A stretch of 64,000 nucleotides of DNA from Candidatus Saccharimonadota bacterium. Lineage in GTDB: Bacteria; Patescibacteriota; Saccharimonadia; Saccharimonadales; Saccharimonadaceae. Positions 2,881 through 51,296 of this stretch are shown here, piece after piece. Numbering within the stretch: the stretch's first letter is position 1; each line of letters starts with the position of its first letter. The stretch spans positions 1 to 64,000 of the forward strand of contig JAILQE010000006.1 in the NCBI GenBank assembly GCA_024699125.1, given 5' to 3'. The translations under genes and the position numbers were made by a program. The notes beneath the pieces are model-generated. The model did no database searches. It was not told the DNA's origin and was given only the letters and a program-made list of their open reading frames with translations.

Positions 2881-3343
2881 CTTTGTGCCTCAAAACCTTA
2901 TGCAAATGTTTGGCGGTGCCAATATGATTATTCAAATTAAAGAGCGCATCGCCAACTTTGGTACTACGGAGCGCCTGGGTGCGGGCCTCGTAAGCCTGGT
3001 GGCGAAGTGGTGACATCGCCTCTTTTACGGCAAAGCGAGCGTCGTCTGCGGCCTCACGGCGGAGACGTTCTTCGTCGGAAATTTCATCTTTTGGCGCATC
3101 TTCTACCGGTTGCAATTTAGAGGTAGAGGTAGTGGCAACCTTGGTGAAAAGCCCGATGTACTCTTGATTGAGTGGCGAAGCAGCAAATTTAGCCTCAAAA
3201 TCGGCATAATCGCTGCAAGTTTTGCCAAATTCTTCGATGCGAGCAAAGAGGTCGTCGATAGATTTTAGCGTTTCTTCATCTTTAATATCGTAGGCAGCAA
3301 AGAAGGCGTCCTTGCGGCCCTTAATAGCAGTATTAATATCCAT
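2858..3343 (-). CDS. Conserved hypothetical helical protein
   Basis: 161 soluble residues, mostly charged helix, no recognised domain. I place the start at 3343 (MDINTAIKGRK), because TATAAT at 3351-3356 sits seven bases before this ATG, matching the leaderless pattern used by many genes here; an in-frame upstream ATG lies inside the promoter region. It is divergent from the NrdR-controlled gene at 3444 and shares its promoter region. It heads a two-gene unit with the HD protein. Confidence 0.6.
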   Translation of the reverse strand: MDINTAIKGRKDAFFAAYDIKDEETLKSIDDLFARIEEFGKTCSDYADFEAKFAASPLNQEYIGLFTKVATTSTSKLQPVEDAPKDEISDEERLRREAADDARFAVKEAMSPLRHQAYEARTQALRSTKVGDALFNLNNHIGTAKHLHKVLRHKDDEDSEQ

Positions 3344-3359
3344 GAAATCTATTATAGCA

Positions 3360-3408
3360 CACCCACATTTAGTGTATTTTATGTATTGACAAACGCTATA
3401 TATAGCGT
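3360..3408 (+). promoter_or_regulatory. Tandem NrdR boxes (one perfect palindrome, one half-degenerate)
   Basis: 3393-3408 reads ACGCTATATATAGCGT, a perfect 16-bp palindrome differing from the NrdR-box consensus (ACACTATATATAGTGT) only by the symmetric A-to-G/T-to-C change. It fills the spacer between the -35 and -10 of the promoter for 3444. A second element at 3360-3375 keeps the right half-site TTTAGTGT and lies 33 bp upstream (start to start), about three helical turns, the usual NrdR tandem spacing. NrdR represses ribonucleotide reductase genes when dATP/ATP is high; the regulator gene itself is not in the window. Confidence 0.72.
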
Positions 3409-3415
3409 ATATAAT
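3386..3415 (+). promoter_or_regulatory. Promoter for the glycyl-radical-domain gene
   Basis: Consensus TTGACA (3386-3391) and TATAAT (3410-3415) with an 18-bp spacer occupied by the NrdR palindrome. The start is expected near 3422, leaving a short leader with an AAAGGA Shine-Dalgarno before the ATG at 3444. Confidence 0.85.
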
Positions 3416-3443
3416 CATAAGCATAATCTAATAAAGGACAAAC

Positions 3444-3866
3444 ATGAGAAATATTATCTATTTTAGCCCAGATGATGCCACTAAATTCGACCTCGAGCGC
3501 TTTTCAAAATCGCTCGCGCGCTACGCAAAAGTGCCAAAAGAAGCCATCGAAGAGGCATTGAAACCACTCGCACAATATGAAAACTTGCATGTAAGCCGCT
3601 TGGTAGAAACCGGCGTTGGCTTAATCGAGAAATTCGGCAAAGATGAGGATGCTAAGAAGTATTATGATGAGTATTCTCACTATTTTGGCAGCAATTTTGA
3701 AAGACTCCGCCGCATCACTGGCTATTTGGTCGGTACTTTGGATCGCTGGAACGATGCCAAAAAAGCCGAGGAAAAGGCCCGCGTCAAACACTCTGTAAAT
3801 TCCTGCGTGGACGATCTCGTGCGTGCCGCCAAAATGCAAGACCAAATCTTGGCCCATAATGTATAA
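3444..3866 (+). CDS. Stand-alone NrdD-type glycyl radical domain protein
   Basis: 140 residues. Residues 87-118 (RLRRITGYLVGTLDRWNDAK, then AEEKARVKH) match the C-terminal glycyl-radical region of class III anaerobic ribonucleotide reductases: R-I-T-G-Y with the radical glycine equivalent to Gly93, then WN-x-x-K-x-x-E and RVKH. The four-cysteine zinc site that normally precedes this loop is missing, and the N-terminal 80 residues are helical without a known fold. No reductase barrel is present, so it cannot be a full reductase. By analogy with GrcA/YfiD, which replaces damaged pyruvate formate-lyase radical domains, it could be a spare radical domain for NrdD. The NrdR box in its promoter supports a ribonucleotide-reductase role. 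Function is inference. Confidence 0.68.
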   Translation: MRNIIYFSPDDATKFDLERFSKSLARYAKVPKEAIEEALKPLAQYENLHVSRLVETGVGLIEKFGKDEDAKKYYDEYSHYFGSNFERLRRITGYLVGTLDRWNDAKKAEEKARVKHSVNSCVDDLVRAAKMQDQILAHNV

Positions 3867-3874
3867 TTGGGTTA

Positions 3875-4468
3875 ATGGTTAAGCCTAAAAACGATTCTAA
3901 ATTATTACCTTATCAAAAAGTTGGCATCTTTTGCCTGGTCACCGTCGCAGCCGGCTTCATCGGCTGGATTTACGAAACGATTTTTTATTTCTTTAACGAC
4001 GATTTTAAGTGGTCATGGCAGGGTGGCAACTTTTTGCCGTGGATCAATATTTACGCCATCGGCGCTTTGCTCATCATCGCCACCACCTACAAATTGCGCA
4101 GTCGCCCGTGGCTGGTGTTTTTGGTTGGAACCCTGGTGACTGGGCTGACAGAGTTAATTGGCGGTTGGCTGGTTTACACTATCGGCAACGGCACGCGGTT
4201 TTGGGATTATAATGTGGAGATTTTGAATTTTGGCAACATTGGCGGGTTTATCTGCCTGCGTAGCGTGCTTTGCTTTGGAGTGTCGGCGCTACTTTTGATG
4301 TATGTGGTGCTGCCGCGCCTCGAGTGGATGGCTCGCAATATGTCTCGCCGTACGTTTTTAACGCTCTCCTTTTCCCTATTCACGGTTGTGATGGTAGACG
4401 AATTTTATAATATTTTTGCTAATTATCTCTTGAATTTACCAAGCGCTAGACAGATTTATTTGGGATGA
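3875..4468 (+). CDS. CmpB-like multi-pass membrane protein (putative ABC transporter type IV)
   Basis: 197 residues with five or six membrane segments. The sequence GWIYETIFYFF in the first segment, the GNFLPWINIYAIGALLI loop/segment, and the TELIGGWLVY...WDY stretch followed by GGFICLRSVLCFG are typical of the CmpB/DUF1113 membrane family of unknown transport role. TATAAT (3862-3867) lies inside the 3' end of the previous gene, seven bases before this ATG, so besides readthrough it can have its own leaderless transcript. A strong terminator follows. Confidence 0.72.
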   Translation: MVKPKNDSKLLPYQKVGIFCLVTVAAGFIGWIYETIFYFFNDDFKWSWQGGNFLPWINIYAIGALLIIATTYKLRSRPWLVFLVGTLVTGLTELIGGWLVYTIGNGTRFWDYNVEILNFGNIGGFICLRSVLCFGVSALLLMYVVLPRLEWMARNMSRRTFLTLSFSLFTVVMVDEFYNIFANYLLNLPSARQIYLG

Positions 4469-4472
4469 AAAA

Positions 4473-4500
4473 ACACCGCAATAGTGCTGCGGTGTCTTTT
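4473..4500. terminator. Bidirectional intrinsic terminator
   Basis: 8-bp perfect stem ACACCGCA (4473-4480) / TGCGGTGT (4488-4495) with a 7-base loop; TCTTTT follows on plus and an A-run precedes, giving Us on the minus strand. It separates the convergent genes ending at 4468 and 4515. Confidence 0.85.
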
Positions 4501-4514
4501 CGCTGGAATAGTTT

Positions 4515-5030
4515 TTAGATGTAGTCCTCCTTGCGGAGGCCCTCCGGGAAGTCAAACTTGGTTTTCCCATTGCGAAGCTCCCGAAGCGTCATACGCATAA
4601 AATCTTTAAACGCTTCTCTGGAAGACACACCGTGGCCGTTTCGAGCAAAGTCGAAAATTGCCAGGCTACCGACGTCGTCAGCAAAGTACTCCATCTCATC
4701 ATCAGAACCGATCAGAAAATGTTCCAAAATATATTTCACATTTTCCTCGTCTTTGATGACGAACGGGAGAAATTCGTAGAATTCCTTGCTACCCGGCTCA
4801 ATGGCCTGCATAGCCACCATGTCGTCCATGCAGAGGTCATCCGTCGCGACCAACTCTTTCATCAGGGACTCCGGGCAGTCATCTTCCGGCCAATGATATT
4901 GCTTGCACGGCCCACACGAGTCTCCGTAAACAGTTATGCCGACGTTATAGCATAGGCCTCTGACGAAGAACATCACGTCAAAGTTTTGGAAGTAAATCAC
5001 TGTCTTACCTTCTTTTTCTGCAGTAAACAT
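4515..5030 (-). CDS. Hypothetical acidic cytoplasmic protein with CGPC motif
   Basis: 171 residues, rich in Asp/Glu and Phe/Met, no signal peptide or membrane segment. Near residue 40 YGDSCGPCKQYHW resembles a thioredoxin CGPC active site, but the surrounding order does not look like a thioredoxin. The start is set at 5030 because GGAGG lies five bases before this ATG; the in-frame ATG four codons upstream overlaps the Shine-Dalgarno itself. It is a monocistronic unit with its own consensus promoter, structured leader and terminator, and a codon style richer in C-ending codons than its neighbours. Function unknown; an acquired gene is possible. Confidence 0.6.
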   Translation of the reverse strand: MFTAEKEGKTVIYFQNFDVMFFVRGLCYNVGITVYGDSCGPCKQYHWPEDDCPESLMKELVATDDLCMDDMVAMQAIEPGSKEFYEFLPFVIKDEENVKYILEHFLIGSDDEMEYFADDVGSLAIFDFARNGHGVSSREAFKDFMRMTLRELRNGKTKFDFPEGLRKEDYI

Positions 5031-47017: not shown

Positions 47018-47092
47018 TGGTGCGAGTGGAGGGGGTCGAACCCTCATCCCAAGTTTGGAAAACTTGTATACTAACCGCTGTACTACACTCGC
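47018..47092 (-). tRNA. tRNA-Gly (anticodon TCC), CCA encoded
   Basis: Minus strand: acceptor GCGAGTG/CACTCGC, D-arm with GGTTAGTA, anticodon stem CAAGT/ACTTG with loop TTTCCAA (TCC), T-loop GGTTCGACC, discriminator A at 47021, CCA at 47018-47020. 75 nt. Confidence 0.95.
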
Positions 47093-47176: not shown

Positions 47177-47254
47177 TGGGGCGGGAAACAGGAATCGAAC
47201 CTGCGACCTTCTGGACCACAATCAGACGCTCTAACCAACTGAGCTATTCCCGCC
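47177..47254 (-). tRNA. tRNA-His (anticodon GTG), CCA encoded
   Basis: Minus strand: extra 5' G (G-1) opposite C73, the histidine identity pair; acceptor GCGGGAA/TTCCCGC; D-loop AGTTGGTTAGA; anticodon loop TTGTGGT with GTG; T-loop GGTTCGATTCC; CCA at 47177-47179. 78 nt. The last base pair of the anticodon stem (A31-C39) is mismatched. Confidence 0.93.
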
Positions 47255-47601: not shown

Positions 47602-48357
47602 TTATTTCTTTGGTAATAAGAGGAAGGCTACGGTGCCTACGGCGGCGCCAAGGATAATCGTCAGGATGATGGCGATAATTGGGCCGATGTGGGAGTCTTT
47701 CTCTGGTTTATCGATGATTTGGACTGGGCCAGTCGGGGCTTCAACAGCGGTAGGCTCTGGTTTTTCGTAGACATTCTTTGAAAGTGGGCGTTTTTCGACC
47801 TGCACTGATTTTACAAATGGGGTATCTGGGGTCTTTAGGGCCTGAAATTCTGGTTCTTTGGCGGCTGGTGCCTCTATTACTGGGGCTTTTTCCTCTTTGG
47901 CTTTTTTGACGCTTGAACCAAAGAGTGAGCTACGGACTTTTTTGGATTTGGCCTCGGTGAGCTCGGCAGATGGGCGTGGAGCAGAAAGTGGGCGTTTTTC
48001 GACCTTGGCTGCGGTGAAAAATGGCTCGTAATCTTCGATCACACCATAAGATAATTCTCTGGTAGTAGTAAAAGTCTTGGCTTTTGGCTCAAAAGTTTCT
48101 GGTTTTGGAGCTGGGGTTGGAGCTGGAGTAGGTTTAACAGGGGTGACTGGCTTTGGAGCCGGCTTCATAGCTGGTTTTGGTGCTACTGGGCGGACAGGTT
48201 GGACTGGTTTGACCTCTTTAACTACAGTTCTGCGCACAAAAACAGCGGTAACTGGCTGAACAGGGGCCGGTTTTGGGGCCGGTGCAGGCACAGTTTTAGC
48301 TGGCGCCGCGGTAGGGCGCTTTTTTGCGGGGGCAAAATCTATGTAGCGTTTCGTCAT
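47602..48357 (-). CDS. Proline-rich tail-anchored membrane protein
   Basis: 251 residues. About 210 cytoplasmic residues rich in Pro, Lys and Ala, with the motif VEKRPLS occurring twice (about residues 118 and 194) and AKSKKVRSSLFGSS between; then one C-terminal membrane helix (HIGPIIAIILTIILGAAVGTVAFLLL) and PKK. This orientation (large cytoplasmic, tail anchor) is uncommon in bacteria. It starts next to the tpiA stop. No family recognised. Confidence 0.6.
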   Translation of the reverse strand: MTKRYIDFAPAKKRPTAAPAKTVPAPAPKPAPVQPVTAVFVRRTVVKEVKPVQPVRPVAPKPAMKPAPKPVTPVKPTPAPTPAPKPETFEPKAKTFTTTRELSYGVIEDYEPFFTAAKVEKRPLSAPRPSAELTEAKSKKVRSSLFGSSVKKAKEEKAPVIEAPAAKEPEFQALKTPDTPFVKSVQVEKRPLSKNVYEKPEPTAVEAPTGPVQIIDKPEKDSHIGPIIAIILTIILGAAVGTVAFLLLPKK

Positions 48358-49127
48358 TGAGTTACTCTTTTAGCTACTTCGATTATATCAGTGAACTCGT
48401 TTAAAATCAAGCTGGAGCCGCTCATGAGAAGGCCATTTACCCCTGGAACGGTGAGGTAGGCACCGGCATTAGATGGGTTGATACTGCCGCCAAATAGAAT
48501 AGGGGTGGCGGCGGCGATTTCCTTGCCATAGGTTTCTTCGAGCGTAGCGCGGAGCATTTTCACGGCTTCGGACACTTCATCAGGGGTGGCAAGGCGAGCA
48601 GCGCTGTTACTTGAGATGGCCCAAACTGGGTCGTAGATAAAGATTACTTTGCTGACGTCCTCTGTAGAAACATCATTTAAGGCGCCAAGCATTTGGTCGC
48701 GTAAAACATCGGCGGTTTCATTGAAGGCACGTTCGGATTCGGTTTCACCGAGGCAAACAATCGGGGTAATTTTGTTGCGGAGGGCAGCCGCAACCTTCTT
48801 TTGAATATCCTTGTCGTCTTCGTGGAAAATATGGCGGCGTTCGGCGTGACCAATAATACAATAATCGGCAATGCCACGCAGCTGGGTAAAGGATGTTTCC
48901 CCTGTAAAGGCACCAAAATCACGATAAAACGCGTTTTGGGCGGCAAGCTTAAGTTTGTGGCGGTCTACCTGTAAAGACAGAGGCTGCAAAGCCAAAGTTG
49001 GCGGCGCAACGATGATTTCGAGATTGCGATACACCGGTAACGCCTTTAAAAGTTTATGAAGATAGATGGAAGATTCACCAACGGTAAAATTTAACTTCCA
49101 GTTGCCCACGATATAAGTTTTTGCCAT
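48354..49127 (-). CDS. tpiA: Triosephosphate isomerase homologue with Glu-to-Asp catalytic base
   Basis: 257 residues with the full TIM order: GNWKLN (Asn9, Lys11), IIGHAERR (His94), PILFGGSINPSNA and LLMSGSSL. The catalytic Glu of YEPVWAIGTG is Asp166 here (YDPVWAISSN), the following loop-6 tip is changed, and the Ser of GHSERR is Ala95. In model TIMs Glu-to-Asp at this place costs about three orders of magnitude in rate, and changes at the neighbouring Ser can partly rescue it. It may be a slow or repurposed isomerase. TATAAT (49134-49139) is six bases before the ATG. The PfkB-aldolase fusion is divergent. Confidence 0.88.
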   Translation of the reverse strand: MAKTYIVGNWKLNFTVGESSIYLHKLLKALPVYRNLEIIVAPPTLALQPLSLQVDRHKLKLAAQNAFYRDFGAFTGETSFTQLRGIADYCIIGHAERRHIFHEDDKDIQKKVAAALRNKITPIVCLGETESERAFNETADVLRDQMLGALNDVSTEDVSKVIFIYDPVWAISSNSAARLATPDEVSEAVKMLRATLEETYGKEIAAATPILFGGSINPSNAGAYLTVPGVNGLLMSGSSLILNEFTDIIEVAKRVTQ

Positions 49128-49178: not shown

Positions 49179-50564
49179 ATGAGTAGAATCTTAGTGATGG
49201 GCAATATTTTGAAGGACGTTTATCTGAATCTTGATGAGCGCACCGCAAAATTTGAGACCGATCGCGAGGGGACCAAATGGCTAAATCTGAGCTTTGATGC
49301 CAGTGATTATCACTTTTACCGCCGCAATAGTAGCTATGGCGGCGCCGCCGTGTCGCTTGAGGTGCTAAAAAAGCTTGGCCACGAGGTCAAAATTATGGGT
49401 TCTGACCTTGATCTTAACAACGATGGGCTATTTTCTAGGCAAGCGCCGAGCGTTTACCGCTATATTTTGGTGGCGGACGATTCCCAAATCGCCTACTTTA
49501 CCCCTAGTCTGGTTTCGACTACCAATTTTATCGCCCCAACTGAGCCAACCGATTACCTTTATATCGACCGCTCAGTTGAACTAACAGAGAGCGTTGCCAA
49601 AGAAATTGAGAGCTTTTTGATTAGCACGCCAACCGTAAAACTAGTGATTTACCTCAAGAAAACCGAGCATTTCCACGAAAGGCGCCTGCTTTCGCGTGCT
49701 GAATTGGTGTTTGCGGAAGAAAAAACCGATTTGGTATCTGATGACAAGCTGGTTCTCATTAACGAAAAGTTTTTGCGTTATCGTGATTTATCTGAGCCAA
49801 TCACTTTAATGCGCCCCGATCTTGCTACCCATCTTTCCTTGTATTCTACCGCGTCGGCTACGATTTTTGGCGCCTTTGCCCTAGGTAAACCAATGGCCGA
49901 GGCTCTGAAACTGGCGCACGCGAACGTTGAAAATTCCCAACTTGATAAAACTTTGGATCTCGCCCAGATGGAAGAATTAGCCGCAAATTACGGGGGTGGT
50001 GGTGCCGATCTAGAACTCATAGCTAAAAGCTTGCTGATTGGTAGCAAAGGCATCTTTGACCTATCTGAGGCGGCGACCGAGCAAAAAGATCATTTTGTGC
50101 TGAATGGCATCGCTGATAACTTTATCAATCGCCAAGATTACTACAGCAATTTACTCATGTCTACTCCACTTAGTGAAAAATACAACGGCGCTGCGCTTAC
50201 TGAGGAGGCAGCTAGCCAATTTACCGATGATGGCCGCAATTTTCTTGATTTTCTCACCGATAACCGTGTGATGCCTGGCATCGTAATTGTAGGCGAAGTA
50301 AACGAAGATGAATGCAAAAAATTTGTTAGTATGTTCCGCCAGTGGAAACAAATGGGCGTGGGCTTTTTGAAATGGAATCTGCCAGCTGAAGGCGACCGCA
50401 CGGAATTAATCAAAAACGCTACTAAATTTGCGCGTTGTGCCCTGACCGCCGGTTTGGTACCGGTAATCGACACTACAAAACGTCCGGAAAACCATCTAGA
50501 CCACAAAGTAATTGATAGTTTGGCCGAAAACGACCTTAACTTAAAAGCTTGTATCGTGCTTTAA
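49179..50564 (+). CDS. Degenerate PfkB-like kinase fused to truncated class I aldolase-like domain
   Basis: 461 residues. Residues 1-265 follow the ribokinase/PfkB fold: SYGGAAVSLEVLKKLGHEV is the first signature, but the DTxGAGD loop is STASATIF (223-230), so the catalytic Asp is gone. Residues 280-461 match class I fructose-bisphosphate aldolase: GSKGIFDLSEA (for GKGILAADES), NRQDYYSNLL, TDDGRNFLDFL, MPGIVIVGEV (Lys of GIKVD lost), VGFLKW (Lys398 kept), NATKFAR and GLVPVID; the chain ends before the Schiff-base Lys. Both active sites look dead. Start 49179 is six bases after TATAAT; a TTG two codons upstream is inside that spacing. Perhaps a regulatory scaffold. Confidence 0.7.
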   Translation: MSRILVMGNILKDVYLNLDERTAKFETDREGTKWLNLSFDASDYHFYRRNSSYGGAAVSLEVLKKLGHEVKIMGSDLDLNNDGLFSRQAPSVYRYILVADDSQIAYFTPSLVSTTNFIAPTEPTDYLYIDRSVELTESVAKEIESFLISTPTVKLVIYLKKTEHFHERRLLSRAELVFAEEKTDLVSDDKLVLINEKFLRYRDLSEPITLMRPDLATHLSLYSTASATIFGAFALGKPMAEALKLAHANVENSQLDKTLDLAQMEELAANYGGGGADLELIAKSLLIGSKGIFDLSEAATEQKDHFVLNGIADNFINRQDYYSNLLMSTPLSEKYNGAALTEEAASQFTDDGRNFLDFLTDNRVMPGIVIVGEVNEDECKKFVSMFRQWKQMGVGFLKWNLPAEGDRTELIKNATKFARCALTAGLVPVIDTTKRPENHLDHKVIDSLAENDLNLKACIVL

Positions 50565-50565
50565 C

Positions 50566-50595
50566 AAAAAACCGGCCTTTTAGGCCGGCTTTTTT
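50566..50595. terminator. Terminator between converging genes
   Basis: CCGGCC (50572-50577) / GGCCGG (50583-50588), A-run before, T-run after (50590-50595), between the fusion gene and rplY. Confidence 0.85.
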
Positions 50596-50606
50596 GACTG
50601 TTTTTA

Positions 50607-51296
50607 TTATTCAGCAGGAGTTTCAGAAGCTTCTTCTTCTGGTTTTTGACCGTTGTCAGAAGGAACATCAGCAGCGTCCACAGTTTCTTCAGCGGCAGCG
50701 GCTTCTTCGGCTTCACGAGCGGCAGCTTCGGCAGCTGGGTCGTAAACAGAGATCACAACTTGTTCTTTGTCGAGCTCTTTGTTGGCAAATTCTACGCCAG
50801 CAGGAAGCACGATGTCGGCAACGGTAAGTTTGTCATCGGCAGAAACGAGCTTAGAGGCATCGAGTTCGATTTCAGATGGAAGATCAGATGGTTTAGCTTT
50901 GATGTCGATTTCTTCCATAGCTTTGTTGTACATGAAGTGATAAAGTTTGGAAGCATCGGATTCACCAAAGCCTTTGATAACGATTGGGGTGGTTGCTTCA
51001 ACCACTTCGTTGGCGGAAATAGCTTGGAATTCGATGTTGATGATGCGGCGAGAAACGGCATCAAGATTAACGTCTTTTACGATGGCAAGTTGTCTTTTGC
51101 CGTCAATAGTTAGATCGATTGGTGAGTGGTAACCGGCTTTTTCAAGCACCTTTTCGGTGGCTACGTATTCAGAGCTAGCGAGAATTGGGGTTTTGCCGCC
51201 ATAAATAACAGATGGGATCAAACCTTTTTCACGCAAAGTTTTAGCTTTTTTACCGGTGAGTTCGCGTTTTTCAAGCGCTAATTTATATTCAGACAT
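50607..51296 (-). CDS. rplY: Ribosomal protein bL25 (CTC/TL5 type) with acidic tail
   Basis: 229 residues. N-terminal L25 beta-barrel (KLALEKRELTGKKAKTLREKGLIPSVIYG), QLAIVKDVNLDAVSRRIINIEFQAI, and the TL5 C-terminal domain (DLPSEIELDASKL, LTVADIVLP). The last 45 residues are Ala/Glu-rich, as in rplS of this window. L25 binds 5S rRNA. Shine-Dalgarno TAAGGAG precedes the ATG. Confidence 0.95.
   Translation of the reverse strand: MSEYKLALEKRELTGKKAKTLREKGLIPSVIYGGKTPILASSEYVATEKVLEKAGYHSPIDLTIDGKRQLAIVKDVNLDAVSRRIINIEFQAISANEVVEATTPIVIKGFGESDASKLYHFMYNKAMEEIDIKAKPSDLPSEIELDASKLVSADDKLTVADIVLPAGVEFANKELDKEQVVISVYDPAAEAAAREAEEAAAAEETVDAADVPSDNGQKPEEEASETPAE

Follow-up and report, generated by a model that had tools for sequence, protein, structure and literature searches.

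Why would a bacterium with a genome of 0.77 Mb keep a gene for a fusion protein in which neither half retains its canonical active site? The locus that raises this question lies in the 64,000-nucleotide stretch of DNA analysed here (the window), which comes from the genome (G000) of a tiny, gut-dwelling Saccharibacteria species in the genus of Candidatus Nanosyncoccus alces. The named relatives recovered by scanning with a profile of the N-terminal domain (N-domain) are Candidatus Saccharibacteria, chiefly ruminant-gut metagenome genomes, and the protein of Candidatus Nanosyncoccus alces itself (L111) is identical to that of G001 (L004), from the window's genus. The reading that we prefer, with a probability of roughly 0.58, is that the N-terminal half is a pseudo-PfkB domain whose role, in ligand sensing or protein binding, is non-catalytic and does not depend on the aldolase, and that here it carries a decaying aldolase tail.

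The fusion gene, its neighbours and its two folds

The features of the locus are the following.

48354-49127, minus strand: tpiA (triosephosphate isomerase, TIM), divergent neighbour of the fusion gene
49179-50564, plus strand: fusion gene ORF, ATG start, TAA stop, 461 aa
49179..49994, plus strand: N-domain, residues 1-272, predicted degenerate PfkB/ribokinase-fold domain, catalytic Asp replaced by Ser223
49995..50561, plus strand: C-domain relic, residues 273-461, class I fructose-bisphosphate aldolase (FBA), ending at the Schiff-base Lys position
50562..50564, plus strand: TAA stop; relatives run on for about 110 residues past this point
50572..50588, plus strand: terminator-like hairpin with T tail, between the fusion gene and the convergent L25-like gene
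50607..51296, minus strand: ribosomal protein L25-like gene, convergent neighbour, named by eye

A TTG two codons upstream of the ATG is a second possible start. The hairpin is the richest in G-C pairs of six intrinsic-terminator-like sites in the region, where 3.6 are expected. Divergent transcription from tpiA, part of the original prediction, is borne out by the opposite strands of the two genes. The adjacency is found in many relatives, not all: tpiA lies elsewhere on the same contig in G027, G034, G094 and G134, and on a different contig in G005 and G158. The L25-like gene adjoins the N-domain gene in most aldolase-less loci read. An assembly artefact is ruled out, as the gene is interior to a 69.6-kb contig and a separate sister genome (G185) has the same two-part layout in a protein of 460 aa; chance resemblance is ruled out by fold and homology. 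Upstream, the minus strand carries genes for tRNA-Gly (47018-47092) and tRNA-His (47177-47253), which account for the small ORFs that overlap near 46.9-47.3 kb.

The predicted structure of the 461-aa protein (mean pLDDT 88.7) contains two consecutive folds in one chain, as had been proposed along with superposition on PfkB-type and aldolase structures as the check. Residues 1-272 superpose as a ribokinase-like fold on 3in1_A (VIA Z 19.8, rmsd 3.4, 252 aligned residues), with Foldseek returning 6ilr_B at E 7.3e-10, and residues 273-461 superpose on the aldolase 3mmt_B (VIA Z 18.8, rmsd 2.3, 186 aligned residues).

The N-domain is strongly diverged. The Pfam PfkB family (PF00294) matches none of 70 family-alignment members at E 0.01, and the N-domain profile found no PDB sequences. 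Profile comparison links the domain to PfkB kinases of about 500 aa that carry GAGD (E 5e-17), and only weakly to stand-alone PfkB (probability 78). N-domain profile matches occur in 188 of 392 genomes of the class, many only weakly, and two weak cases from other genera of the family that were read (L204, 536-2032; L205, 1117-2661) are such ~500-aa kinases, with a normal PfkB domain, GAGD and, at the N-terminus, about 170 additional aa without a Pfam match. This kinase is the nearest active-looking relative of the N-domain that we found; the two have a GDIFTDAFI...W pattern in common, but the kinase differs in its GAGD, its Pfam PfkB match and its lack of an aldolase. Judged from sequence, the N-domain is thus a degenerate PfkB, too diverged for Pfam.

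In the alignment, Ser223 of the window protein occupies the column of the GAGD Asp, which is Asp in the kinase L205, in agreement with the predicted loss of this residue. The column holds Ser in 90 of 92 intact genus fusions and in all 15 aldolase-less proteins, while 16 rows from other genera show Ser (6), Leu (6), Gln (2), Thr (1) and Ala (1). GAGD is found in no fusion read, several genera being covered, nor in the window N-domain, and beyond the Asp the whole GAG anion hole is missing. Highly conserved in the genus are D13, W34, G55, R94, D130, T217, S223, N249 and E251. All or nearly all members keep the N-terminal KD-motif Asp, the GG-motif Gly, D130, T217, S223, N249 and E251, residues which we take to lie on the sugar and nucleotide sides of the ribokinase cleft. 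What is presumably the substrate-binding Asn of the GGxxxN motif seems to be replaced by Val in the N-domain, which would mean that the sugar site is partly altered as well.

The C-terminal half shares the fold of class I FBA (PF00274; Bartonella 3mmt, rabbit muscle). PF00274, the one Pfam family that the window protein matches, covers residues 278-432 as a partial match with 38.8 bits (cut-off 22.2); the NCBIfam class I FBA model gives the window protein 35.7 bits against a cut-off of 250, which the intact relative L111 passes with 371 bits. In the predicted-structure alignment, model residues 271-461 overlie residues 8-229 of rabbit-type aldolase chains, and Lys229 of the usual aldolase numbering is presumably the Schiff-base residue. 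We take the catalytic positions, in rabbit-muscle numbering, to be Asp33, Lys107, Lys146, Arg148, Glu187, Glu189, Lys229 and Arg303. Alignment with intact relatives shows that in the window protein GILAADES has become GIFDLSEA (Asp33 to Ser), GIKVD has become GIVIV (Lys107 to Val), FAKWR has become FLKWN (Lys146 kept, Arg148 lost) and VEPEV has become VIDTT (both Glu gone), and that the chain ends ...LKACIVL where relatives read ...LKACILKxNM. Compared with class I FBA, the window copy therefore lacks Asp33, Lys107, Arg148, Glu187, Glu189, Lys229 and everything beyond. One of the eight positions is left, the Lys146 equivalent in FLKW, located by alignment with intact relatives; the profile alignment did not place it. 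The retained FLKW and the missing GILAADES Asp, GIKVD Lys and Schiff-base Lys segment had all been predicted correctly.

The fusion family and the loss of its aldolase half

In the genus, the N-domain is present in 163 of 174 genomes (107 of the 110 of good quality) and a PF00274 match in 149 (98 of the 110). A full or nearly full-length aldolase is found in 143, which is the 149 minus six relics or contig-end pieces (G000, G185, G070, G166, G158, G063). Intact fusions have about 590-700 aa, and 86 of the 92 unique sequences coded intact in the genus have all eight catalytic letters; the other six carry one or two substitutions (L020, L022, L028, L164, L169) or a frameshift (L097). In four further genera of the family, all 13 full fusions read (L191-L197, L201-L203, L208-L210) likewise carry the complete catalytic set. 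Every fusion read lacks the N-domain Asp, whereas most relatives have an intact aldolase, so the two halves lost their active sites at different times. The original description of both active sites as degraded holds for the canonical sites of the window protein, but it missed this difference in timing. In evolutionary terms, the comparison of relatives indicates that the dead kinase is ancestral and the dead aldolase lineage-specific, one of some eight losses that arose independently in the genus.

An open N-domain without a working aldolase occurs in 15 genus genomes. Eight encode the N-domain alone, with 261-269 aa (G160, G182, G151, G132, G139, G146, G005, G122), and seven retain an in-frame aldolase relic (G000, G185, G070, G166, G135, G162, G158). 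On a quick tree of 123 N-domains, built without bootstrap, the losses amount to 8 parsimony changes, 5 of them forced by well-supported branches; the tree includes all the aldolase-less loci read and a part of the intact ones. It excludes L204, L205 and rows at contig edges, and G011 (L016) was set aside for a run of N. At first 18 rows were coded as lost; the 15 rows and 8 changes are obtained without G336 and G464 (genus g53) and G354 (g32), in which the aldolase may never have joined. G073 (L097), with the frameshift in its aldolase, was coded intact, and omitting it leaves the loss count unchanged. The contig-end cases G004 and G063 were not counted as losses, the match of G015 is at a contig edge, and G064 and G144 have weak N-domain matches outside the examined loci.

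Two further arrangements were seen outside the genus. In g53, N-domain homologues of 315-331 aa (L198, L199) have no fused or nearby aldolase. In a genome of another family (G056, L100), class I FBA and PfkB genes are unfused (2894-3766 and 3880-4845), the separate FBA gene lying just upstream of an intact PfkB gene with GAGD.

Among the 14 good-quality genomes without a working aldolase (G004 is excluded because its gene runs off the contig end), 11 keep the N-domain and three have lost both domains (G085, G017, G172). The N-domain is thus not indispensable, both domains being absent from three of the 110 good genomes. TIM is also absent in two of these three: G085 and G172, which are 97-98% complete, have neither the fusion gene nor a TIM match and seem to have lost the whole FBP-triose node.

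Selection on the two halves and its explanation

Codon comparisons and site conservation show that the N-domain is under purifying selection without the aldolase. Intact fusions have 23 sites with conservation of 97% or more, and across these the 15 aldolase-less proteins retain 344 of 345 residues; at sites of 50-97% conservation the agreement falls from 0.73 to 0.65. N-domain dN/dS in aldolase-less pairs is 0.03-0.13 overall (G160/G182, 0.033; G151/G139, 0.080; G151/G132, 0.074; G135/G162, 0.076; G005/G122 (L030/L088), 0.064, YN00 value only). The window genome and its sister (G000/G185) give 0.134, a rough ratio because dS is near saturation, and at the same near-saturated dS their aldolase relic gives about 0.32, roughly 2.4 times the N-domain value of 0.13. 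The relic of G135/G162 (residues 275-385; dN/dS 0.113, 0.049-0.223) is still constrained; the Ser/Ala tail of this pair overlaps the convergent gene and was not used in the selection estimates.

Comparison with relatives shows that the gene derives from an Asp-less PfkB-family sugar-kinase domain fused to a working class I FBA. In the window lineage the aldolase half has decayed in frame and been truncated at the Schiff-base lysine position, and the species is left without a recognisable FBA of the families searched. The protein probably persists through a function specific to the pseudo-PfkB half and independent of kinase and aldolase chemistry alike, as selection and repeated retention suggest. 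In the weakest step of this account, the old cleft may well still bind a small ligand, either a sugar phosphate or a nucleotide, which the N-domain might signal to a partner protein as sensor or regulatory subunit. In intact relatives it would tether or tune the fused aldolase. A role of the window protein as regulator or scaffold is plausible, and this part of the original proposal gains from the retention of the N-domain without an aldolase, but its assignment to lower glycolysis is unsupported, tpiA not always being adjacent. Tentatively, and with odds somewhat below even, the pseudoenzyme half could be viewed as now indispensable: it would respond to a ligand, regulate Saccharibacteria carbon metabolism and have survived its enzyme in several lineages, with the window protein as an intermediate in which both enzymes are dead and the sensor lives on.

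Three other explanations have to be weighed against an independent non-catalytic role. The N-domain might be purely structural, a dimerisation or docking module such as a pseudo-subunit of the genome's separate active PfkB kinase. PfkB enzymes are commonly dimers, and 164 of 174 genus genomes have a separate PfkB; however, G005, G122 and G158 retain the N-domain although no PfkB was found in them, and we regard this explanation as unlikely. Nor do we favour a domain that is still a kinase, with another residue (e.g. the THL His or the conserved Ser) replacing the GAGD Asp. It would account for the retained ribokinase fold and for the near invariance in the genus of the residues of the former nucleotide side (T217, L219, S223, N249 and E251), but with the entire anion hole lost beyond the Asp and a motif that varies between genera (Ser 6/16, Leu 6/16, others 4/16) it is quite improbable. 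Plain gene decay, in which loss of the aldolase came first and the N-domain, a bystander, has yet to follow, would fit the different pieces of aldolase retained between lineages and the three good genomes without both domains, but is very unlikely given the low dN/dS, the near-complete retention of core residues and the open N-domain in 11 of 14 good genomes without a working aldolase.

Known fusions and the metabolic setting

Fusions of a PfkB-type kinase with an aldolase for phosphorylated sugars are known, namely IolC-DUF2090 (NF047869), reported as important for inositol use (PMC9007349), and KHG/KDPG aldolase-sugar kinase (NF041633). Their two halves are both considered active, with an aldolase of the LacD/DeoC type, whereas the family described here combines an Asp-less kinase with a PF00274 class I FBA. 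Neither model matches the window protein, L111 or the N-only proteins L160 and L170, and with both halves lacking catalytic residues the window protein is not a bifunctional kinase/aldolase of the IolC-DUF2090 type; both models weakly match the related kinases L204 and L206. Dead PfkB proteins are also known. Plant FLN1 and FLN2 are pfkB-type members of the plastid RNA polymerase complex; they are reported to have a role in transcription complexes (PMC3409070, PMC4036507), and no substrate was found for them (PMC3409070). They belong to the plant plastid and a transcription complex and have no aldolase, and we liken them to the N-domain by description, not by sequence.

The open-licence literature searched yielded no case of a dead PfkB joined to a PF00274 aldolase in which the dead half repeatedly outlives the live one, and the pairing of the two known themes seems new in that scope. 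The family offers an experiment of nature that has been repeated many times: a fusion loses its catalytic half and retains the non-catalytic one. This is strong evidence for a function of the pseudoenzyme domain itself. For some species of the genus, annotation of the fusion gene as class I FBA can mislead.

Class II FBA was found in none of the 36 genus genomes among 60 related genomes searched, and in 21 of the 24 from other families. TAL/FSA-family and DeoC-family matches were absent from all of 30 Saccharibacteria genomes (0/30 each, controls positive), and TIM was present in 27 of this panel. In the window genome, no class II FBA, transaldolase-family or DeoC-family match was obtained; our searches show, at the level of recognisable sequence families, that it has TIM and no working FBP aldolase of the families searched. 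As some Saccharibacteria thus have no recognisable FBA, transaldolase-family or DeoC-family enzyme, the link from hexose to triose phosphates becomes a testable question in them. In intact species, PfkB plus FBA with no transaldolase or DeoC would fit a sedoheptulose-bisphosphate bypass.

The group had been characterized as often lacking phosphofructokinase (PFK), and G1 and G6 Saccharibacteria are indeed described without PFK (PMC8386444). PfkA-type PFK occurs in one of the 60 related genomes, but a separate PfkB is present in 56 of them, near class II FBA in many of those from other families, and a PfkB beside FBA in Nanosynbacter lyticus has been predicted as PFK (PMC12815258). PfkB is missing in 3 of the 14 good aldolase-less genomes (Fisher p 0.044 versus the rest of 109, G004 left out), which is only suggestive of PfkB loss going with aldolase loss. 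The window genome itself encodes a separate PfkB with GSGD, whose gene adjoins genes read by eye as rpiB and rpe.
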